IMG/VR virus record: IMGVR_UViG_3300017708_001005
Span: 1-25,061 of that record
Length of the DNA stretch: 25,061 nt
Source of the DNA: a virus
Reading direction: 5' to 3' (one strand)
Below, in pieces: positions 1 to 12,071 of the stretch; the first letter of the stretch is position 1, and every line of letters begins with the position of its first letter. Under the pieces are notes generated by a model, which saw only the letters and a program-made list of their open reading frames with translations, was not told the origin of the DNA and did not search any database. The position numbers and the translations under genes were made by a program.

Positions 1-195
1 ATCAAGAAATTCCGTAATCTGTGGTAAAGCACTTTCTGCAAATACAGACTCGGAATCAACTTCATGTACTATGACATTTGTTTTAAAGTTTGCAAGAATA
101 TAACACAAACTCGTAATTACATTCCTCAATCGATCATCAGATTCTAATCTGATTGGAACAATGAAGGTTGCATTAGATAGGTCGATCTTTTTCAT
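1..195 (-). CDS. Glycosyltransferase family 2-like protein, N-terminal fragment (gene runs off the left edge)
   Basis: The first 65 codons of a gene are visible, starting at an ATG at 195 and open to position 1. The N-terminus reads MKKIDLSNATFIVPIRLES, then a DDRLRNV segment and a predicted strand (FKTNVIVHEVD). This order of strand, Asp-rich turn, helix and strand is how GT-A-fold family 2 glycosyltransferases begin, with the (F/V)(I/V)P segment forming the nucleotide-binding strand. The catalytic half lies outside the window. The start overlaps the stop of the upstream glycosyltransferase as ATGA, so translation is probably coupled and the gene belongs to the same glycan operon. The family call rests on about 60 residues and is moderate; donor and acceptor cannot be told. 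Confidence 0.6.
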   Translation of the reverse strand, partial: MKKIDLSNATFIVPIRLESDDRLRNVITSLCYILANFKTNVIVHEVDSESVFAESALPQITEFLD

Positions 196-920
196 CTTTT
201 ATTCTTTTCTAAAACGTAATCTAATTCCTCTTTATTTACAACCCATGATCCTTCTGGATGATCGAATCGATAGTTGTAGTCCACATTAGAAGAACTAATT
301 CTATTTGGGTGTTCACGATTAGCAACTAAGTATTGTTCAACTAATCCAGGATCACCATTTTGACACTTCATTCTGTGATAGAAGTCGGTATCCATTAGCA
401 ATTTTAATTTAGAATCAAATCCCACAAAACTCTCCGTTTCAAATGCAACACAAGAAGGTGAACCAAGAAGATTTCTACCCTCTAACATCATATCACACCA
501 TCTAGGAATCATGGGTCTTACAAAATTTCTGCCGTCTGACGTATGTTTGAACCCACTGAATAACCACTTACAATCAGTTTCTTTAAGTGTTCTAACAATG
601 ATATCAAAAGCATTCTCATCAATAAAAAGATCATCTGAAAAGATGAGTTTGGTGTATTGACCAGAACACATCTCAACTGCGGAGTTTGTATTTGCTGGAC
701 CATTACCACGATCTTCTACGTTCTTAAAGTATTGAATCGTAAAGTCTTGAGAATACTCTTCACATACTTCAAGAGTAGAATCGTCCTTAGAATGATCTGA
801 GATACAAACCTCAAAATTCTTAAACGTTTGCTTTGCAATACTTGAAAACAATTCTCTAAGATAATCTGGTCCTACACCACCCATTTCATAAGTAGGAATA
901 GCAACTGATAGGTCAGTCAT
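192..920 (-). CDS. Family 2 (GT-A fold) glycosyltransferase
   Basis: A 242-residue protein with a GT2 layout. The N-terminal strand MTDLSVAIPTYEMGG is followed by a helix with SSIAKQTFKNFEVCISD, the usual family segment (sLl.Qt..n.EviI.D). A central IFSDDLFIDENAF segment near residue 95 carries the Asp-Asp that normally binds metal and the sugar-nucleotide diphosphate. The length suits a single-domain GT2 without membrane helices, so it should act in the cytoplasm on a soluble or membrane-peripheral acceptor. The ATG at 920 overlaps the stop of the fucosyltransferase upstream (ATGA), and its own stop overlaps the next glycosyltransferase. The donor sugar is unknown; with the GDP-L-fucose genes in the same operon, a GDP sugar is possible, but most GT2 enzymes use UDP or dTDP donors. 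The family call is firm and the specificity is open. Confidence 0.85.
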   Translation of the reverse strand: MTDLSVAIPTYEMGGVGPDYLRELFSSIAKQTFKNFEVCISDHSKDDSTLEVCEEYSQDFTIQYFKNVEDRGNGPANTNSAVEMCSGQYTKLIFSDDLFIDENAFDIIVRTLKETDCKWLFSGFKHTSDGRNFVRPMIPRWCDMMLEGRNLLGSPSCVAFETESFVGFDSKLKLLMDTDFYHRMKCQNGDPGLVEQYLVANREHPNRISSSNVDYNYRFDHPEGSWVVNKEELDYVLEKNKR

Positions 921-1702
921 ACTTTCAACCAGTTACTGGGAACAATGTCACGAGTATCATTTTTTGCAGTATATCCTTCACCAAACCACCGAGCAGGAGC
1001 AACTACTCCTCCACGATTTGCCAACCAAGCACCCCACCATGAGAAAGAAGAGTTAGCAATGATGAAGTCATTGCATAGAGACATCAAACATAGATCATAA
1101 CGATTATCATTTCCTTCAGCAACCATGAAACGATCTGAAGAGAAGATACTTTGTTCCTTACACCATACAGGATCATCAGAGAATACAATTACATTGCGGT
1201 CATCATCAAACTTACCCAATGCTTCTTGATAATATTCAGCACTGCATGGTGGATGATCTACTGCCTTAGACACATAATCAGTTCTACGAACATGAAGTGC
1301 AAGAGGATTGTCTACTTGCTCAATAAATTCGGTGCAAGTCTCTACAATCTCATCATGGAAAGTATAGTCTTCTCTAATACTATCAGCAATATTCTCAAAG
1401 TATCTTTCAGTTTGAAAATATCCAAATAGACAAGTTTGATCGGGACAATTATCTACATACTCCTGATCATAATGAAATTGCTTCTCCTGATAATAATCTG
1501 GTTGAAGTTGAAACCCACGATTTTTATTGTGAGGAAGTTTAAAAGTTTCAAATAATTGATGATCCTTCCATTCATCTGCAAAATTAGATTGAGGAATACA
1601 AAAATCATATCCATGTACTGCAGCAATGCCACGGAGTGCTGCATATTGAAACATTTGATTGCCAAGTCTTCCGTGCTGACCTAAATGATTAAAACCGATC
1701 AT
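917..1702 (-). CDS. Alpha-1,2-fucosyltransferase-like protein (GT11 family)
   Basis: A 261-residue protein carrying the diagnostic GT11 blocks in order: GRLGNQMFQYA at residues 11-21, GYFQTERYF at 94-102, HVRRTDY at 137-143 (the HxRRxDY motif that binds the GDP-fucose pyrophosphate) and NSSFSWWGAWL at 217-227. These are the motifs of bacterial FutC/WbsJ-type alpha-1,2-fucosyltransferases, which move L-fucose from GDP-L-fucose to a galactose-type acceptor. The length is slightly short for the family (about 280-300), but all blocks are present. The gene overlaps its neighbours by ATGA on both sides. The same operon encodes the enzymes that make the donor GDP-L-fucose, which strongly supports the call. 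The acceptor is unknown, and GDP-L-galactose could be an alternative donor given the epimerase gene at 3551-4540. Confidence 0.9.
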   Translation of the reverse strand: MIGFNHLGQHGRLGNQMFQYAALRGIAAVHGYDFCIPQSNFADEWKDHQLFETFKLPHNKNRGFQLQPDYYQEKQFHYDQEYVDNCPDQTCLFGYFQTERYFENIADSIREDYTFHDEIVETCTEFIEQVDNPLALHVRRTDYVSKAVDHPPCSAEYYQEALGKFDDDRNVIVFSDDPVWCKEQSIFSSDRFMVAEGNDNRYDLCLMSLCNDFIIANSSFSWWGAWLANRGGVVAPARWFGEGYTAKNDTRDIVPSNWLKV

Positions 1703-2711: not shown

Positions 2712-3560
2712 TCATATCATTGCTAATTGTGGGTTTGATGCCTTGCGTCCAATGTCAAGGATTGATAAAATTTGACCCTCGTCTTCTAAAACGAGTTCAC
2801 TAACTTGATTCCAATCTTCATCATACTTGCGAATTATACCATCACCAAATGCACGATCACTTCTCTTTGATGTAGGTGAAACACCAACCCAAAAGTGATT
2901 GTCTACATGAGCAAAACCACGTACCCATCCACCAAGATCTTTTACAAAACCACCAGTAGATCTTACATATCCTTCCTTAGAACTCAGAGTGTAGATGTCA
3001 CCTTTGTGTAACCACAAGTCATGACATTGAATACCCATATTATTATGGATCTGTCTTGGTGGTTGACCAATACCATCAAACTCAAGAATGTAACTACCAT
3101 TATCCCAGTTGTGTGCAAGGATATATAAACGATTGTCAGTTCCGTAGACAGTGTTTAGGTGATGACTATCTCTGTAATTACAGTTCCTTCGTGGTGGAAT
3201 TGGCTGCCAACGATCCCACTTCTCACCATCATAGATTGCAATGTAATCACCATAACTTGATGTGCAAAGAAGTTTACCAGACCAGAATCCAATACCATGA
3301 AGGTCTTGTAGTTTAAAATCTTCTGGTTCAAGAATTGCTTCAGACCTTAGTTTATTATCTAAGACCATAATATCACCAGATTCTTGTTCTGGTGGAATAA
3401 AAGTATTAGTATGAGTTGGATCACTATTGCGGCAAGCAACATAATACTTACCGAAACTTTTTGATAGACCATAGTAAAGACCTTTACCACGATCTACAGG
3501 AGTAATTACGTTATCTTCACGGACATATAATAACGACCTTGTAGTTGCTACTAGGAACAT
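2712..3560 (-). CDS. Beta-propeller-like protein resembling TIGR03032/DUF4915
   Basis: A 282-residue protein built of repeated short strands with Trp/Tyr/Gly turns. Blade-like units include DLHGIGFWSGKLLCTSS, CHDLWLHKGDIYTLSS and GWVRGFAHVDNHFWVGVSPT. Alternation of (D/C)HDLxxxxGxIYTxSS with GxVRGxAxxxxxxxVGxS is characteristic of the TIGR03032 family of unknown function found in bacterial glycan and secondary-metabolite clusters; I recognise the pattern rather than a search result. There is no signal peptide or membrane helix. The start (ATG at 3560) lies inside the end of the epimerase gene (10 bp overlap), so it is co-translated with the sugar-nucleotide genes. A lectin-like, scaffolding or glycan-binding role is possible, as is a minor virion protein. 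Function is not established. Confidence 0.55.
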   Translation of the reverse strand: MFLVATTRSLLYVREDNVITPVDRGKGLYYGLSKSFGKYYVACRNSDPTHTNTFIPPEQESGDIMVLDNKLRSEAILEPEDFKLQDLHGIGFWSGKLLCTSSYGDYIAIYDGEKWDRWQPIPPRRNCNYRDSHHLNTVYGTDNRLYILAHNWDNGSYILEFDGIGQPPRQIHNNMGIQCHDLWLHKGDIYTLSSKEGYVRSTGGFVKDLGGWVRGFAHVDNHFWVGVSPTSKRSDRAFGDGIIRKYDEDWNQVSELVLEDEGQILSILDIGRKASNPQLAMI

Positions 3561-4540
3561 CGAGCACTCTCCTCAACTTGCTGCTTAATCCAATTGTATG
3601 TAATCTCAATACCTTCTCTTAAGGACATTGTATAGTCCCATTCTAACATCTTACGAATCAAATCGTTGTTTGAGTTACGTGCCTTAACACCAATACAGTT
3701 AGCATCAATCTTATGAACTCTACGAACTGGTTTTCCTGCAACATTAGAAACAATATCTACAAGTTGATTAATAGTAACCATCTCTTCAGAACCAATATTA
3801 ACTGGTCCACTCCAATCAGATTGCATCAAACGATATGTTGCTTCAATACATTCATCAATGAATAGAAATGATCTTGTCTGTTCTCCATTACCCCAAACCT
3901 GAACATGTCCACCAACTTCAGGAACCTCTGCAACCTTTCGGCACATAGCAGCAGGTACTTTCTCCTTACCACCAGTCCAAGTGCCCTCAGGACCGAACAC
4001 ATTGTGATAACGGGCAACCTTTACATCTAGATCATACTGCCTTGCGAATGCAAAGAAGAGTCTCTCACTGAATAGTTTCTCCCATCCATACTCAGAATCT
4101 GGTTGTGCAGGATATACACTTGCCTCAGATGTATCGATATGCTTCACATCCTCCTGGTTGAGTTCTGAATAAACACAGGCAGAAGATGAATAGAAAATCT
4201 TTGTAGTATCAATCGAAGTAATTGATGCTGCTCTTAAAACATTCAGATTAATCTGAACAGAGTTATGCATAATATTTGCATCATTCTCACCTGTAAAGAG
4301 ATAACCTGCACCACCCATGTCAGCAGCAAACTGATAGATCTCATCAAAAGATCGATTACAAACATTTAATGCTAATGCATCATCAGTCAAATCACCAATG
4401 ATAAACTCATCTGCTTCTGTTTCTGAAAACTCTGGATACTTTAGATCAACTCCACGAACCCAATATCCTTCTTTTTTAAGACGACGAACCATATGACTTC
4501 CGATGAATCCACCTGCCCCACATACTAATGCTGTTTTCAT
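3551..4540 (-). CDS. GDP-mannose 3,5-epimerase-like extended SDR
   Basis: A 329-residue NAD-dependent epimerase. Visible are the Rossmann motif GAGGFIGSH (8-16), the AADMGG segment (72-77), SSSACVYSE (118-126), YGWEK (151-155), the HNVFGPEGTW segment and GGKEKVPAAMCRK (190-202). From knowledge of the plant GDP-mannose 3,5-epimerase, the YxxxK pair plus a Cys in SSAC and a Lys in GG(R/K)EK are the catalytic residues. Here they are Cys122, Tyr151, Lys155 and Lys194, with the same spacing as in plants (29 and 43 residues). The enzyme would convert GDP-D-mannose to GDP-L-galactose and/or GDP-L-gulose. The gene overlaps GDP-fucose synthase by ATGA, so both branches from GDP-mannose are co-translated. 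A different NDP-hexose epimerase is the alternative, less likely given these residues. Confidence 0.85.
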   Translation of the reverse strand: MKTALVCGAGGFIGSHMVRRLKKEGYWVRGVDLKYPEFSETEADEFIIGDLTDDALALNVCNRSFDEIYQFAADMGGAGYLFTGENDANIMHNSVQINLNVLRAASITSIDTTKIFYSSSACVYSELNQEDVKHIDTSEASVYPAQPDSEYGWEKLFSERLFFAFARQYDLDVKVARYHNVFGPEGTWTGGKEKVPAAMCRKVAEVPEVGGHVQVWGNGEQTRSFLFIDECIEATYRLMQSDWSGPVNIGSEEMVTINQLVDIVSNVAGKPVRRVHKIDANCIGVKARNSNNDLIRKMLEWDYTMSLREGIEITYNWIKQQVEESARCS

Positions 4541-5547
4541 CCTTCACTACACCCTTTACAACAATTATTTTTAAGAATCTCATTCACTTCACCTTCAATA
4601 TCATCCATACCTCTAGCTGTACCTTGATATTCAAGGAACCACTTATAGGTAGACTCAATACCTTCACGCAAATTAATTTTTGGTTCCCATCCAGTAGATT
4701 TCATACGAGAAACATCCATTACCTTACGCATTGTTCCGTTAGGTTTTTCAGTATCCCACATAATATGACCAGTATATCCTACCACATCGGCAATAGTCTC
4801 TGCAAGTTCCTTGATTGAAACTTCAATTCCAGATCCAACATTGATAATTTGCTGTGGATCATCATAATTATTCAACAGATATAAACACGCATCAGCAAGA
4901 TCATCTACATGTAGAAACTCACGTAAAGGTGAACCATCACCCCAGCAAGTTACTGTTGGTAAATTCTCCTCCATTGCTTCTTGGAATCTACGAATCAATC
5001 CAGGAAGAACATGAGACTTTTCTGGGTGAAAGTTATCACCAGGTCCATATAGATTGCAAGGCATTGCACTTATAAAATTGCATCCATACTGTTCATGATA
5101 TGACTGACACATCTTAATACCAGCAATCTTTGCAATTGCATAAGCATCATTCGTTGGTTCCAAAGGACCAGTCAATAGAGATTCCTCTTTGATTGGAATC
5201 GGTGCATGTTTTGGATAAATGCATGACGATCCAAGGAAAAGAAGTTTTTTAACATTCCAATCCCATGAGAGATCAATCAGATTTGATTGAATCATTAGAT
5301 TATCCCAGATGATATCTGCTTTATAATCTCTATTACCAAGAATGCCACCAACTTTTGCAGCAGCACAGATAACATAATCTGGGGATGAGTTTGAAATAAA
5401 TGACTTTACTTGATCATAATACCTAAGATCAACAGATCTATCAGCAAGAATAATATTTTTATATCCGTCTCTTATTAACTTTCTAAGAATTGCTGACCCA
5501 ACTAAACCGTTATGACCAGCAAGAAAAATTCTTGAATCATTGTCCAT
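4537..5547 (-). CDS. fcl: GDP-L-fucose synthase (GDP-4-keto-6-deoxymannose 3,5-epimerase/4-reductase)
   Basis: A 336-residue SDR enzyme that converts GDP-4-keto-6-deoxy-D-mannose to GDP-L-fucose with NADPH. The N-terminus has the GHNGLVGSA nucleotide-binding loop (11-19). The catalytic segment [15 protein letters not shown] gives Ser107 and Cys109, then YAIAK gives Tyr136 and Lys140, and NFHPEKSHV gives His179. These are the same residue numbers as in E. coli GMER, which supports the ATG at 5547. An in-frame TTG at 5565 would add six residues but is not needed, and a TTGAGGA sequence lies ahead of the ATG. The start overlaps the end of gmd by 11 bp, the usual gmd-fcl order. Length fits the family (about 320). 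The call is firm. Confidence 0.95.
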
Positions 5548-6565
5548 AGATACACATATCCTCAATTAGTTCATCGAAAGAAATTTCAGGTTCCCATCCT
5601 AGTTTCTCTTTTGCTTTGGTAGGATCACCAAGAAGAGTTTCAACTTCAGCAGGACGGTAATATTTAGGATGGACTGCAATAATTGTTTTTCTAGTATGCT
5701 TATCCATACCGATCTCATCATCACCTTCACCAACCCATTCAATTGTAATTCCAAAGTAAGGAGCAACTCTTTCTACAAATTCACGAACTGAATACTGCTT
5801 TCCAGTGGCAATCACAAAATCATCAGGTTCATCCTGTTGCAGCATTAACCACATAGCACGAACATAATCCTTTGCATGTCCCCAATCTCGTTTTGCATCT
5901 AGGTTTCCCAGATAGAGAACCTTTTGCTCTCCAACAGAAATACGAGAAAGACCACGAGTGATCTTGCGAGTTACAAAGGTCTCACCACGACGAGGTGATT
6001 CATGATTGAATAAGATGCCAGTACAAGCATACATTCCATAGGACTCACGATAGTTCTTTGTGATCCAATAGGAGTAAACCTTTGCACACCCATATGGAGA
6101 ACGTGGATAAAAAGGTGTGGTCTCAGTCTGAGGAGATTCCTGAACAAGACCATACATCTCAGACGTTGATGCTTGATAGATACGACACTTCTTCTCCATA
6201 CCTAAAATGCGGACTGCCTCAAGAATACGAAGTGTTCCTAGACCATCAACATTACCAGTGTACTCAGGCATCTCAAAAGATACCTTAACATGACTCTGTG
6301 CTGCAAGATTGTAAATCTCGTCAGGTTGAGATTTCTGAAGTATATGAACAATATTTGCGGAATCAGATAGATCCCCATAATGCAATTTAACTCGTTCATG
6401 GTCAAAGATGTGATCAATACGAGCAGTGTTGATTAGAGATGCTCTCCGAACAATTCCATGCACCATATATCCTTTTTCAAGTAGCAACTCGGCAAGATAA
6501 GAACCATCCTGTCCAGTGATACCAGTAATTAATGCTGTCTTCATTTTCTTATTTGCATTACTCAT
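5537..6565 (-). CDS. gmd: GDP-mannose 4,6-dehydratase
   Basis: A 342-residue extended SDR making GDP-4-keto-6-deoxy-D-mannose, the first committed step to GDP-L-fucose. Visible are [12 protein letters not shown] (NADP-binding glycine loop, 15-26), GIVRRAS (37-43), the NLAAQSHV segment (87-94), STSEMYG (133-139) and YGCAK (158-162). Thr134, Glu136, Tyr158 and Lys162 match the catalytic set of GMD. The [17 protein letters not shown] segment typical of GMD follows. Length matches the family (340-370). The start is the ATG at 6565, preceded by TAGGATATAATC, a fair ribosome-binding site. An in-frame ATG seven codons downstream begins KTALITG directly and is an alternative. The gene overlaps its upstream neighbour by 8 bp and fcl downstream by 11 bp. 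Confidence 0.96.
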
Positions 6566-7172
6566 GATTATATCCTACATTAAATGTAAATGTCAATCTC
6601 ATATCAGTCCTAGTTTGATCTGGAATTACTTCATGAACCAACCAAGGTGGAAATAAAATTACATCACCATCTCGAACTTCTTGATCGCACATATCAGAAT
6701 ACATATCTGAAATTGGTGAATCGGGATGAATGTCTGATGGCATACAAAGTTTCATATATCTATGTGCATTATGAAACCTTGTTGGTGATGCTCCCTTATT
6801 ATAATAAATTCCAGACCAATATGAATTAGTATCTCCAGCATTTACTAAATGATCATGAGGTTCTTGACCCTGATTGTCATGATACACATTATACCAGATT
6901 TGTGTACAGTAAGCACCCTTATAAGATATTCCGAGACGTTTCAATACTACTTGAATATCCATAAGTAAATCACGTTCAATACAATTCCTAGTCTCAGGAA
7001 AGATGTATGGATCATCATCTTCAATATCTGGAAAAGAACTATTAAGCGAAACTTCCCAACCATCGGGAATACGTTCTTTCCTTTCGATGATTGGGAAATT
7101 ATAATTATTGTGCTTGCTAAACTTAAATTTAATAACAGGGACAGAAAATAAAGGTATCAATTCAATTGACAT
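6558..7172 (-). CDS. 2OG-Fe(II) oxygenase-like protein (TIGR02466 type)
   Basis: A 204-residue protein with the jelly-roll oxygenase pattern. [18 protein letters not shown] gives candidate metal ligands His106 and His108, then [11 protein letters not shown], a [15 protein letters not shown] segment with distal His180, and RLTFTFNVG with Arg192, which would bind the 2-oxoglutarate carboxylate. The W-N near the first His, the SGxYY strand and the FPxxxxH...R...FN tail fit the TIGR02466 group common in marine phages. The first ligand set is HxH rather than HxD. The substrate is unknown, and it lies between the sugar-nucleotide genes and a coiled-coil protein. Family is likely; role (protein or sugar hydroxylation) is open. 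Confidence 0.75.
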
Positions 7173-7557: not shown

Positions 7558-7632
7558 GGGTCTTGCAGGCTCGCCACTTGTTTTTTAAGGAAACAAGAAA
7601 CCTAATAGGGTCAATTGACTCCACCAGTTCTG

Positions 7633-7980
7633 TTACAGTCCGTCCGTGACTCTATTATAATCATCCTCTAAACGAATAATATCATCTTCTTTACATTCAC
7701 CTTCTTGAACTTCTAAAAAGGTAATACCATCAGCATTTGCTTCGATTCTATGAACCTCACCTCTACCGATAATAAAAGTTGAACTTGGATTTGCTGGTAT
7801 AGTTTCATTACCAACAATTACCTTACCAGAACCAGAAAGAATATACCAAAACTCATCCCTATGGGCATGTTTTTGAAGAGAAATTCTCTTGAAAGGTTTG
7901 ACATGAATCTTTTTAATCACCACATTATGATGTCTTTCAAGATCCTTATACCAACCCCATGGTTTATCTATGTGATTCAT
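7633..7980 (-). CDS. Stand-alone cupin, mannose-6-phosphate isomerase type II-like
   Basis: A 115-residue single cupin. It matches the C-terminal domain of bifunctional ManC/AlgA enzymes: KPWGWYKDL at the N-terminus, KKIHVKPFKRISLQKHAH, then DEFWYILSGSGKV and GEVHRIEA. The metal-binding set would be His38, His40, Glu43 and His77. Type II phosphomannose isomerases interconvert fructose-6-phosphate and mannose-6-phosphate, the entry to GDP-mannose, which feeds the gmd, fcl and epimerase genes nearby. No guanylyltransferase domain is attached and none is seen in the window, so the host may supply it. The ATG at 7980 overlaps the carbamoyltransferase stop (ATGA). Many small cupins share this fold, so another sugar-related isomerase activity is possible. 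Confidence 0.8.
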   Translation of the reverse strand: MNHIDKPWGWYKDLERHHNVVIKKIHVKPFKRISLQKHAHRDEFWYILSGSGKVIVGNETIPANPSSTFIIGRGEVHRIEANADGITFLEVQEGECKEDDIIRLEDDYNRVTDGL

Positions 7981-9527
7981 TTTGGAAAATAGTAATCTTC
8001 TAGGACTAACCCAGTTATGGGTTTTGCATCGAGTACTTCAAATGCTTCCTTATATGTATTCAAGATTGGTTTACCTGCTACATTAAAAGAAGTGTTAAGT
8101 AGAACTCCATGACCAGACAGAGTGTCTAGTTCACCCAAAATTTGGTAGATATATTCATTCTGCTTTCTAGTAACTGTTTGAACTCTTGCAGTTCCGTCTA
8201 CATGAGTAACAGAAGATAGTAATTTACGATACTCTGGTCTCACTTCAGGAGAAAAGGTCATATGTCTAGACTCTTTTTCCCAATCGAAATACTTGTTTAA
8301 ATCTTCAAGTCTTACAATAGGAGAAAAAGGTCTGAACGATTCTCGATTCTTGACATTAAGATTCATAATATCTTTCATGTCAGGATTAGTCGCATCACAT
8401 AGGAGACTCCTATTCCCAAGTGCTCTAGGACCATGCTCAGATCCACCACGTACTACACCTACAATACCACCATCAAGAATAATCTTTGCAACTTCTTTTG
8501 CAGAAATTTCTTGAGAATTCTCCCTTTCACGTAAGTATCTACCAATTTCCATTCGATCCCATACAGGTGATCCTGAATAAGTGATGTCAACTTGACGTTC
8601 TGGTTTGATGATGAATAGCAATGCACCTAATGCAATACCACAATCACTAGGATTTGGTGGAACAAAAACTCTACGTTCCCGTGCAATATTCGTGTTGTTA
8701 ATGATATTCAAAGCACAACCACCAGTCAGAATCAGAGGTAAATCTGAATACTGATCTAGAAATGGTTGTATCTCTTCTCTGAACAACTTCTCAAATATAA
8801 TTTGATTTGTTGTTGCAATATCTTGTGCGTTCTGTAGTCCGAATTGTTCAGACCAATCTTGCAGTTCAAACTTTTCTACAAATCTACAGACAGCATCTGG
8901 AACATCATCATAAGTATTTGATTCATAGAACTCAATTAATTTTTCAGCAATATCCTTTCGGTAATTACCATACCCTACATAACCCATCAACTTACCAGGA
9001 TAAACTAAATTTCCCTGGTAAATATCATCTTCATTACGAATAGCAGGGATAAAGTGTGCTGGTGCCATATAAGAGACTGCATAGTCTTTTTCCCCAGTAT
9101 AGATTCTTACTGGGTCTTCACCTCTCTTCATAGTATAGATATTGAAGAAACCTTCATCAGAACCACCATCAAAGGAAACAATTAATGCTTCCCTATAAGG
9201 TGACTGATAAAAGGCACAGCAAGTATGAGCAACATGATGATCACAGTACTCAATATTGGCATCACCAAATATTTCTTTCCACGGAAATACTTGTTCTGAT
9301 ATAGAATTAATAGCAATTAAATCATACTTATCAAAATTATATTTTCTTTTAAAGTATTCACTAATCTCTCTCACATAATTAATTTTGTGAGGAGGTTTCT
9401 CATAAAAATATAGAGCAGCATTTTTATGAGAGATAAATCTCTCAAGTTCTACTACTTCTAAAACTTCATCTTCATAAGACAATGCAAGTGCTGCATTGTG
9501 AGAACCATGAATACCTAAGTTAAACAT
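7977..9527 (-). CDS. O-carbamoyltransferase (NodU/TobZ family)
   Basis: A 516-residue protein of the NodU/CmcH family, which transfers a carbamoyl group from carbamoyl phosphate, through a carbamoyl-adenylate, to a hydroxyl of a sugar or other acceptor. Motifs in order: GIHGSHNAALAL (5-16), DHHVAHTCCAFY (96-107, metal-binding histidines of the Kae1-like domain), SFDGGSDEG (118-126), ILTGGCALNI (266-275), GGSEHGPRALGNRS (361-374), RESFRPFSP (395-403) and LLNTSFNVAGKPI. The length is near the shorter end of the family (520-600) with no gap. It overlaps the cupin gene by ATGA and lies among fucose genes, so its likely acceptor is a sugar of the phage-made glycan; that part is inference. The family call is firm. 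Confidence 0.93.
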   Translation of the reverse strand: MFNLGIHGSHNAALALSYEDEVLEVVELERFISHKNAALYFYEKPPHKINYVREISEYFKRKYNFDKYDLIAINSISEQVFPWKEIFGDANIEYCDHHVAHTCCAFYQSPYREALIVSFDGGSDEGFFNIYTMKRGEDPVRIYTGEKDYAVSYMAPAHFIPAIRNEDDIYQGNLVYPGKLMGYVGYGNYRKDIAEKLIEFYESNTYDDVPDAVCRFVEKFELQDWSEQFGLQNAQDIATTNQIIFEKLFREEIQPFLDQYSDLPLILTGGCALNIINNTNIARERRVFVPPNPSDCGIALGALLFIIKPERQVDITYSGSPVWDRMEIGRYLRERENSQEISAKEVAKIILDGGIVGVVRGGSEHGPRALGNRSLLCDATNPDMKDIMNLNVKNRESFRPFSPIVRLEDLNKYFDWEKESRHMTFSPEVRPEYRKLLSSVTHVDGTARVQTVTRKQNEYIYQILGELDTLSGHGVLLNTSFNVAGKPILNTYKEAFEVLDAKPITGLVLEDYYFPK

Positions 9528-10239: not shown

Positions 10240-10935
10240 TTAAATAGTTCTAGGGACGACTCTTTCTTCTCTGTTGTAGAGATATTCTTGTCCGTAGTAG
10301 TTTCTAAATTCTGCTCCATCTCTAAAATCGGTTCTTAGGTCATACAAATCTTCATACCACCAATCAATTGGTTTCCAGTGGAAATACATGTTTCTATAAT
10401 AGTCTCCTTGGAAAGGATCAATTCTTCCATGCAAACATAGACTTTCGTAGAAGAGCATATCACCAGGTTCAAAAAGAACTTTGTGATGATTATGTTCATG
10501 ATCAAAAAAATCCAATGCCCAATTCTCTTGTGATTGTTGGTCAACGTAAATTATACAACTAATTATATGAGTTTCAATTCGGTCTCTGTGAAGATGAAGT
10601 ATGGAATCCCGAACATAATTTCTAATGCCATATGCCCAAGTCATCTCCAACTCTTGACCAGACCAGTCCTCAATCATAGGAGTGATCTCTTCATAACACA
10701 TATTATAAAGTTCCTGAGATATTTCAGTCTTCATACAGAAAGGTGATCTAGAACCTTTGATCGATATTCCACCACTCGTATAAGTTTTATAGTTCCTATC
10801 GTAAGTAACGTCTTGATCTTTAATATCAAAGACCAAAGTCTCATACTCATCCATCATAAATGAATAAAGATTATCAGGAACCTTTACTTTCTTGAAAGGA
10901 ACATCATTGAATATAGGTTGTAAAACTTCTTTCAT
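10240..10935 (-). CDS. 2OG-Fe(II) oxygenase, prolyl 4-hydroxylase-like
   Basis: A 231-residue protein. The jelly-roll motifs are SILHLHRDRIETH with the HxD pair His116-x-Asp118, ISCIIYVD, then FEPGDMLFYESLCLHGR with distal His169, and GDYYRNMYFHW with Arg181 as candidate 2OG ligand. The order and spacing are those of prolyl 4-hydroxylase-type enzymes. The N-terminal 100 residues are less conserved. The ATG at 10935 overlaps the stop of the O-fucosyltransferase-like gene by ATGA, so the two are made together. This raises the possibility that it hydroxylates a side chain that is then glycosylated. The substrate is not known. Confidence 0.82.
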   Translation of the reverse strand: MKEVLQPIFNDVPFKKVKVPDNLYSFMMDEYETLVFDIKDQDVTYDRNYKTYTSGGISIKGSRSPFCMKTEISQELYNMCYEEITPMIEDWSGQELEMTWAYGIRNYVRDSILHLHRDRIETHIISCIIYVDQQSQENWALDFFDHEHNHHKVLFEPGDMLFYESLCLHGRIDPFQGDYYRNMYFHWKPIDWWYEDLYDLRTDFRDGAEFRNYYGQEYLYNREERVVPRTI

Positions 10936-12071
10936 ACTCCAACCAACTTACCACTTTCTTCATGCATCCACTGCAAATGAGATGAGGAATTCCATTGCCA
11001 AGTATTGTCAGACATTTTTCTCCAAGGAAATACATCTGTCAGATTCTCATCGGGTTCTTCTGGTAGATGATTAATTCCAAGATGATCTTCTGCTTGTCTA
11101 CCCTCAAGACCTCTCATAATATTAATTCTTTTTGAAAATGTTGAAAGATACGTTCCAAAGAAGTTTTCTGACTGTGAGCATATAGTTTGCTCTAAGACTG
11201 CAATGTGAAGATCATCTTCTTCAAAGTCATCACCAAACTTATAATCAAAATCTTCGTAGAAGTAAATGTCATACTTTTCTCCAACTAGATCAAAGAATGA
11301 TCTGTCTTGCTCATCAGTGGCAATATAAAGAGGCAAAGACTTATCATAGAATGGAAGTCTATCTACCATCTCCAGAATCTTCTCAGGAGCATTTACGCAT
11401 TGAATCTCATCCTCTCTTGCATCTAAGAAATCATTTCGTCTGACGTGAATAGAATTGAATGGTCCAAGTTCTTGATGAACCGTATCTGCATAGAAGTAAA
11501 ATTTATCATGATATCTCAAGACTCTATTCACTTTATCCTTTAGTTTATTCCTAAGGTTTTCACCACCAGGATAAACATGATACCAGAAATGACCAAACAG
11601 ATTGTTCTCAAAATGCATAAACTTCTCATCACAATCTAATTCCATCACGGTTCTGTCGTGACAGAAATCATGAAAGTCTTGAGTATCAATTTCTTCATTT
11701 ACAAATACAGTATGCTCATCAGATACTGTAGATGAGTCAAAAAACATTTCAGCAAGATCTAATCCACACTTTCCAAGGTCTTTCGTATAAGAATTCTTTC
11801 CCTGCATCTTTCCCAATTTTCCTCGGAACTCTGGTACATCTTTATGTTCAATACAATCAAATTCTTCTAGAAGGACTTCCTTATCAAAGATCTTCCAGAA
11901 GTCAATCCAGTCTTTTTTCTTCTGACTCTTAGACAGGAAAAGCATCCAACAATCTGGAGGAAGAATAACCTTCCTCTTAGTGATTGCTGCAATTGCCAAG
12001 AACATTTCATATGACATTATAATGTTCACTAGTCCAGAATAATAGGGACTAAAGGAAATATATCTAACCAT
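10932..12071 (-). CDS. GDP-fucose protein O-fucosyltransferase-like glycosyltransferase
   Basis: A 379-residue protein with the layout of the O-FucT superfamily. Near the N-terminus SGLVNIIMSYEMFLAIAA followed by KRKVILPP (33-39) matches the nucleotide-binding entry (G-x-N-x7-E-A-x9-R-x-(L/I)-(L/V)-P-P). The centre has NSIHVRRNDF (206-215), the HxRR.D donor-binding motif. Then come LYIATDE (248-254) and LEQTICSQSENFFGTYLST (293-311) with FSKRINIMRG, the hallmark C-terminal block (EQ-x-(I/V)-C-x3-(D/E)-x-F-x-G-(T/N)-x3-(S/T)-F-x3-I-x3-R). Such enzymes, related to rhizobial NodZ and eukaryotic POFUT, move L-fucose from GDP-fucose to protein or glycan. The operon makes GDP-L-fucose, which supports the call. 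The acceptor is unknown. Confidence 0.75.
   Translation of the reverse strand: MVRYISFSPYYSGLVNIIMSYEMFLAIAAITKRKVILPPDCWMLFLSKSQKKKDWIDFWKIFDKEVLLEEFDCIEHKDVPEFRGKLGKMQGKNSYTKDLGKCGLDLAEMFFDSSTVSDEHTVFVNEEIDTQDFHDFCHDRTVMELDCDEKFMHFENNLFGHFWYHVYPGGENLRNKLKDKVNRVLRYHDKFYFYADTVHQELGPFNSIHVRRNDFLDAREDEIQCVNAPEKILEMVDRLPFYDKSLPLYIATDEQDRSFFDLVGEKYDIYFYEDFDYKFGDDFEEDDLHIAVLEQTICSQSENFFGTYLSTFSKRINIMRGLEGRQAEDHLGINHLPEEPDENLTDVFPWRKMSDNTWQWNSSSHLQWMHEESGKLVGV

Follow-up and report, generated by a model that had tools for sequence, protein, structure and literature searches.

The 25,061-base IMG/VR virus sequence analyzed here (the window, meaning this whole stretch of DNA) very probably encodes a true GDP-mannose 3,5-epimerase (GM35E, referred to below as GME) that is of bacterial ancestry; the gene is an auxiliary one, situated in the glycan island of a marine, T4-like cyanophage of the Kyanoviridae. 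The window shares 84.5% DNA identity with Synechococcus phage S-SCSM1, a member of the Kyanoviridae, across an alignment covering 94% of the window. The GME of that phage (ORF123, QFG06381.1; PMC9602691) is 94.5% identical as a protein, occupies the equal position and has the same order of neighbors (mannose-6-phosphate isomerase (MPI), 2OG oxygenase, gmd, fcl, GME and a GT11-type fucosyltransferase). No important difference was seen between the two, and the window represents a related IMG/VR virus. The S-SCSM1 protein was annotated and discussed as a GME in that report and is listed again in an excerpt of PMC10665884. The preliminary description of the window, which called such an enzyme hardly described in phages, was therefore overstated; 37 phage records carry the gene, many of them under other names. 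The gene itself offers little novelty, as a near-identical phage was known before to carry it. The difference in GME carriage between phages and hosts, and the link with GT11, go beyond the published accounts that we found and provide a modest, directly testable lead.

The features of the window that are discussed below are as follows.

192..920, minus strand: GT2 glycosyltransferase (domain match)
917..1702, minus strand: GT11 (alpha-1,2-fucosyltransferase-type; PF01531, 3.3e-31), candidate user of GDP-L-galactose or GDP-L-fucose
1699-2568 and 2712-3560, minus strand: two unmatched ORFs downstream of GME
3551..4540, minus strand: GDP-mannose 3,5-epimerase, 329 aa, ATG start; predicted catalytic residues S120, C122, Y151, K155, K194 and R288
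4537..5565, minus strand: GDP-L-fucose synthase (fcl/GMER), 452 bits, just under the model cut-off of 500; C115, H185 and K281
5537..6565, minus strand: GDP-mannose 4,6-dehydratase (gmd), TIGR01472, 565.7 bits (cut-off 415)
6558..7172, minus strand: 2OG-Fe(II) oxygenase (domain match), role unassigned
7563..7644, minus strand: degenerate wcaG RNA-like element, 35.2 bits (gathering score 42), E=5.8e-5 over the 501 bases searched
7633..7980, minus strand: mannose-6-phosphate isomerase cupin domain (domain match); MPI is annotated in S-SCSM1
7977-9527, minus strand: NodU-type carbamoyltransferase (domain match)
10932..12071, minus strand: O-FucT family protein (PF10250)

Identification of the epimerase

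The motifs SSAC, YGWEK and GGKEK lie at residues 119-122, 151-155 and 190-194 of the translated GME, and a glycine-rich NAD motif of the form GxxGxx[GA] (GAGGFIG) occupies residues 8-14. When the protein was aligned to Arabidopsis GME (2c59), 136 of the 310 aligned residues were identical (44%), and all eight published GM35E marker positions were common to both, among them the pair by which GM35E is told apart from GDP-fucose synthase. They comprise the catalytic Ser/Tyr/Lys triad (S120, Y151 and K155, equivalent to S143, Y174 and K178 of the Arabidopsis enzyme), the Cys acid and Lys base (C122 and K194 for C145 and K217), the Cys-activating Arg (R288 for R306), and the diphosphate-binding Arg with a conserved Asn (R223 and N180 for R243 and N203). 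In phmmer searches of PDB sequences, GME from Arabidopsis (four entries) and from Myrciaria dubia was matched at E values of 9e-80 to 1e-78. The likeness to the Arabidopsis enzyme is not due to chance, because the best of these values, 9e-80, compares with 9e-22 for the next family.

GDP-L-fucose synthase (GMER), which adjoins GME in the window, resembles it in belonging to the SDR superfamily, in its Cys acid and in performing a double 3,5-epimerization. The two enzymes differ in that GM35E has a Lys rather than a His base and a Cys-activating Arg rather than a Lys (excerpt of PMC8787198). The window fcl, 24% identical to GME, served as an internal control and carries the complete GMER set (C115/H185/K281), with K281 at the place of R288 in GME. 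Assignment of the GME to GMER was rejected, since K194 and R288 replace the His base and the Lys activator; against the GMER model NF047922 the protein scored 102 bits (cut-off 500). UDP-glucose 4-epimerase was also rejected (NCBIfam galE, 74.8 bits against a cut-off of 262.3), as were other NDP-sugar epimerase families on the basis of phmmer, profile scores and marker residues. Pfam matched the protein to general epimerase families only, and PHROGs to the broad nucleotide-sugar epimerase family phrog_540 only.

The coordinates of the ORF, residues C122, Y151, K155 and K194 and their plant spacing, as given in the preliminary description, were all exact, and placement in another NDP-sugar epimerase family was checked and not found. 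Its proposal that the protein is a GDP-mannose 3,5-epimerase is supported by sequence, marker residues, predicted fold and tree. Its wording of a full plant catalytic set holds for the residues and their spacing but not for the word plant, as the set is common to GM35Es generally, bacterial ones included (excerpt of PMC6678494). The same excerpt gives the bacterial enzymes (MfGM35E; BlmG) the same proposed mechanism, with a proposed role in LPS or secondary metabolites. These are cellular and not phage proteins, and were compared here by their published description.

Predicted fold and ancestry

The AlphaFold model of the protein has a pLDDT of 82.4, with values below 50 at residues 77-82 and 144-150. 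Its nearest solved fold is GME in both comparisons made. Each of the best 14 Foldseek matches was a GME chain from a plant, with E values between 3e-33 and 4e-29, and the match after these stood at 4e-23. The top 6 rows of VIA-align were all GME (Arabidopsis, 2c59/2c54/2c5a/2c5e; Myrciaria dubia, 8sg0/8skb), with Z of 35.4-35.9 against 33.5 for the next family; the gap is narrow, about 2 Z units, as members of the superfamily have this fold in common.

In a tree built from 46 rows selected among those fetched, the window protein grouped with GDP-mannose 3,5-epimerases. Plant GMEs, which serve vitamin C and the cell wall, fell outside all bacterial and phage rows (100/100), and all 19 phage or virus rows fell inside one 30-row bacterial/phage clade (100/99), whose cellular rows are actinobacterial, Bifidobacterium-labelled, Moraniibacteriota, Kordia, Pelagibacteraceae and Prochlorococcus. 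A plant origin is rejected by this tree. The placement therefore indicates a bacterial-type GME, of which the window copy is a divergent lineage; as judged from the sequences, its ancestry is bacterial and not plant. The minimum number of virus/cell label changes on the tree was 3. Contigs filed under two metagenome-assembled genomes, one of a Rhodobacteraceae (L017) and one of a Euryarchaeota (L018), have GMEs that nest among those of cyanophages; they are perhaps phage contigs binned into these genomes.

The proteins of the window, S-SCSM1 and the GME locus L098 share a long branch, measured at 0.81-0.91 changes per column and at 0.91 in this tree, and they group with those of L107, L119, L176 and L136 (97/93). 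Because the lineage sits on a long branch, the specificity of the window GME may have shifted. It is conceivable, and in our estimate very unlikely, that the protein is an SDR that kept the GM35E set but has come to act on another GDP-hexose, such as a 6-deoxy or 4-keto-6-deoxy sugar made by gmd, as part of the gmd-fcl pathway. Besides the long branch, the abutting of gmd, fcl and GME fits such a change, and so does the presence of both gmd and fcl in the fetched flanks of the sister rows L107, L119 and L176. However, every marker residue is kept, most GMEs in phage records occur without gmd, and the adjoining fcl has its own GMER set, so that no epimerase is missing from the gmd-fcl pathway.

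Gene neighborhood

In minus-strand order the cassette consists of the NodU-like carbamoyltransferase, the MPI cupin protein, the weak wcaG-like RNA, a small ORF, the 2OG oxygenase, gmd, fcl, GME, the two unmatched ORFs, GT11 and GT2; fcl overlaps the start of GME by 4 nt, and GME overlaps the next ORF by 10 nt. The MPI cupin protein is a possible source of GDP-mannose supply, and the O-FucT protein a possible second user of GDP-sugars. On either side of the O-FucT gene lies a gene whose S-SCSM1 annotation is 2OG-Fe(II) oxygenase.

Rfam at gathering scores detected no wcaG RNA across the window. A targeted search of 501 bases, prompted by the wcaG annotated at the equivalent place in S-SCSM1, returned the degenerate element listed above, in which much of the first stem is missing. 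RNAs of this class are known from cyanophages and have been linked to exopolysaccharide or high-light genes (excerpt of PMC2864571). NCBIfam, Pfam, PDB sequences and PHROGs yielded no convincing match for either of the two ORFs downstream of GME, nor any support for the names given to them in S-SCSM1, 'coatomer subunit alpha' and 'DNA beta-glucosyltransferase'. Among 91 GME loci, they were found at 40% identity or more only at L098 and at L097 (IMG/VR contig 3300017721_000596, 25,901 bases), in addition to the same-place genes of S-SCSM1. The L097 contig encodes a GME that is 100% identical to that of the window, amid ORFs of matching lengths.

The carbamoyltransferase at 7977-9527 raises the question of which product is used. 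The enzyme might be a GM35E exploited, as has been proposed for BlmG, for GDP-L-gulose (or GDP-D-altrose), with the sugar then modified by the upstream NodU-like protein. Bleomycin biosynthesis also involves a carbamoyltransferase. BlmG, 42% identical to the Arabidopsis enzyme, has been hypothesized to make NDP-L-gulose in that pathway (excerpt of PMC6678494). We consider this use very unlikely. L-gulose is a minor product in the equilibrium of 80:15:5 given in the same excerpt, relatives of the NodU-like protein at 40% identity or more occur in only 2 of the 91 GME loci, each belonging to the same lineage as the window, and the frequent partner of GME is GT11, a fucosyltransferase family.

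The genes around GME differ greatly among the phages compared. Of 12 further phages, 11 have a full GME, mostly amid glycosyltransferase, methyltransferase and other sugar genes. This variability, together with a phage, S-B43, that has only part of the gene, would suit a recently moved GME that is unexpressed or unused in the phage. Such functionless cargo is highly improbable, as the spacing S-x-C-(28)-Y-xxx-K-(24)-N-(13)-K is intact in 160 of 160 relatives (80 viral and 80 genome loci, a biased sample formed by the best 80 of each scan), the window cassette is packed tightly like an operon, and GME is present in about a dozen phage lineages (37 records, merged by hand).

Distribution among phages and bacteria

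The 37 phage records were obtained by tblastn at E≤1e-30, all with at least 58% identity; some of them are RefSeq duplicates or strains of a single phage. At E≤1e-5 the number rose to 175, with the 23 records below the 37, among the matches listed, all at 28.3% identity or less. One record of 80-90% identity must be short, because it has no match at E≤1e-30. Relatives numbered at least 591 in IMG/VR and 407 in genome contigs, of which the best 80 of each were kept.

Cyanophages carry GME more often than the sampled host genomes do. In the family of a Prochlorococcus genome (G003), 1 of 300 genomes had GME at E≤1e-60, namely G003 itself, which was chosen for having it; by the same method, gmd was found in 200 of these 300. 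With the 471 phage records whose NrdA reaches 60% identity taken as a rough denominator for cyanomyoviruses, the comparison of 37/471 with 1/300 gave a Fisher p=1.5e-7, with near-identical strains treated as independent. The host, phylum and phage counts are uncorrected for kinship and include incomplete genomes. Three further Prochlorococcus single-cell genomes carry GME. One GME of Prochlorococcus (L021) has a ManC-type GMP/PMI protein and an O-antigen ligase in its vicinity, a plausible host surface-polysaccharide cluster that fits a GDP-mannose substrate and use in a surface glycan.

The gene occurs across many phyla in the genome contig scan. At E≤1e-60 it was found in 3 of 386 Cyanobacteriota, 13 of 398 Pseudomonadota and 23 of 395 Bacteroidota, each count including the center genome chosen for the gene (up to 5 first-look candidates were scored per genome in these phylum searches, and 7 in the family search). 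The earlier statement that this capacity is rare in bacteria was thus broadly right, though the gene is widely spread. Excerpts of two papers report 43 close bacterial homologues tabulated in 2011 (PMC3220709) and a biochemically characterized bacterial GM35E, MfGM35E of Methylacidiphilum fumariolicum (PMC6678494).

Association with GT11 and proposed role

With the window GT11 as tblastn query, 102 phage records were matched. GT11 is present in at least 35 of the 37 GME phage records, 34 among the matches listed plus SynMITS9220M01, in which it is the ORF next to GME; the single-cell virus contigs AG-345-O18 and AG-345-D19 are GME records without GT11 among the matches listed. The co-occurrence gave a Fisher p=8e-22, with near-identical strains treated as independent, 34/37 used (without SynMITS9220M01) and all GT11 records taken as lying within the 471. 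Among the 80 viral and isolate loci for which a next ORF was found, GT11 directly follows GME in 5, including Bellamy, S-PRM1 and SynMITS9220M01. Most of the 91 viral or isolate GME loci have no GT11 in their fetched flanks, which are often short; it is present there in 28 of 91.

The gmd gene was detected in 83 phage records at E≤1e-40, of which 63 are cyanophage records at E≤1e-155. Only 2 of the 37 GME records, both S-SCSM1, also have gmd among the matches listed (62 of the 63 cyanophage gmd records), and therefore GME, not gmd-fcl, would be the phage-encoded source of a GDP-L-hexose in most of them. Among 22 lineages of the GT11-bearing cyanophages listed, 13 had GME only, 6 gmd only, 1 both and 2 neither (Fisher p=0.002; lineages merged by eye, without SynMITS9220M01, one 'neither' being a 22.8-kb fragment). 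Such a distribution is consistent with GME and gmd-fcl standing in for each other as donor modules of GT11. However, gmd at 40% identity or more lies near GME in 12 of 91 IMG/VR and isolate loci, which counts against a strict either/or.

The marker residues of the window GME show no departure from the published mechanism, in which NAD+ with Tyr/Lys oxidizes C4, Cys and Lys invert C5 and C3, and C4 is reduced (excerpt of PMC8787198). Bound NAD+ with Y151 and K155 would thus oxidize C4 of GDP-mannose, C122 (the acid, sharpened by R288) and K194 (the base) would invert C5 and C3, and return of the hydride to C4 would yield GDP-L-galactose with some GDP-L-gulose. The GT11-type enzyme, and perhaps other transferases of the island, might then transfer L-galactose onto a surface glycan of the infected cell or onto the virion, and in the window phage L-fucose from gmd-fcl may be added alongside it. 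What the analysis shows directly is the sequence, predicted fold, marker residues, neighborhood and distribution of the window GME; we infer its activity, product, acceptor and benefit.

Some fucosyltransferases accept GDP-L-galactose (excerpt of PMC8787198), and we infer that the phage provides this donor for the decoration of the virion or the host surface by GT11-type transferases. A more specific proposal is offered tentatively, as one that is possible but may well be wrong: that the GT11s of many cyanophages are L-galactosyltransferases fed by the phage GME and paint L-galactose on the infected cell or virion, GME and gmd-fcl being interchangeable, with both in the window lineage. GT11 could instead use host or phage GDP-L-fucose rather than GDP-L-galactose, because 200 of the 300 host genomes have gmd, and GDP-L-fucose made by the host remains as an alternative donor. 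Most sampled hosts seem unable to activate L-galactose by the GME route. If the proposed use is right, cyanophages would, beyond boosting metabolism, add a sugar donor missing from nearly all sampled hosts, and infected cells or virions would bear a chemically distinct mark, with possible effects on superinfection exclusion, grazer recognition or receptor change. Searches of open-licence PMC papers, which did not name these topics, brought up no report of the GT11 association or of the phage/host contrast.

UDP-glucose 4-epimerase is the label on several GMEs of phages, while others are called just nucleotide-sugar epimerase or NAD-dependent epimerase. The identification of GME corrects such mislabelled annotations. 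In S-B43 (MN018232), the partial GME at 5974-6657 (about 227 aa) matches residues 113-324 only and lies right behind a tail-fibre-like gene; it is either a GME that has been cut short or a joint produced by assembly or recombination.
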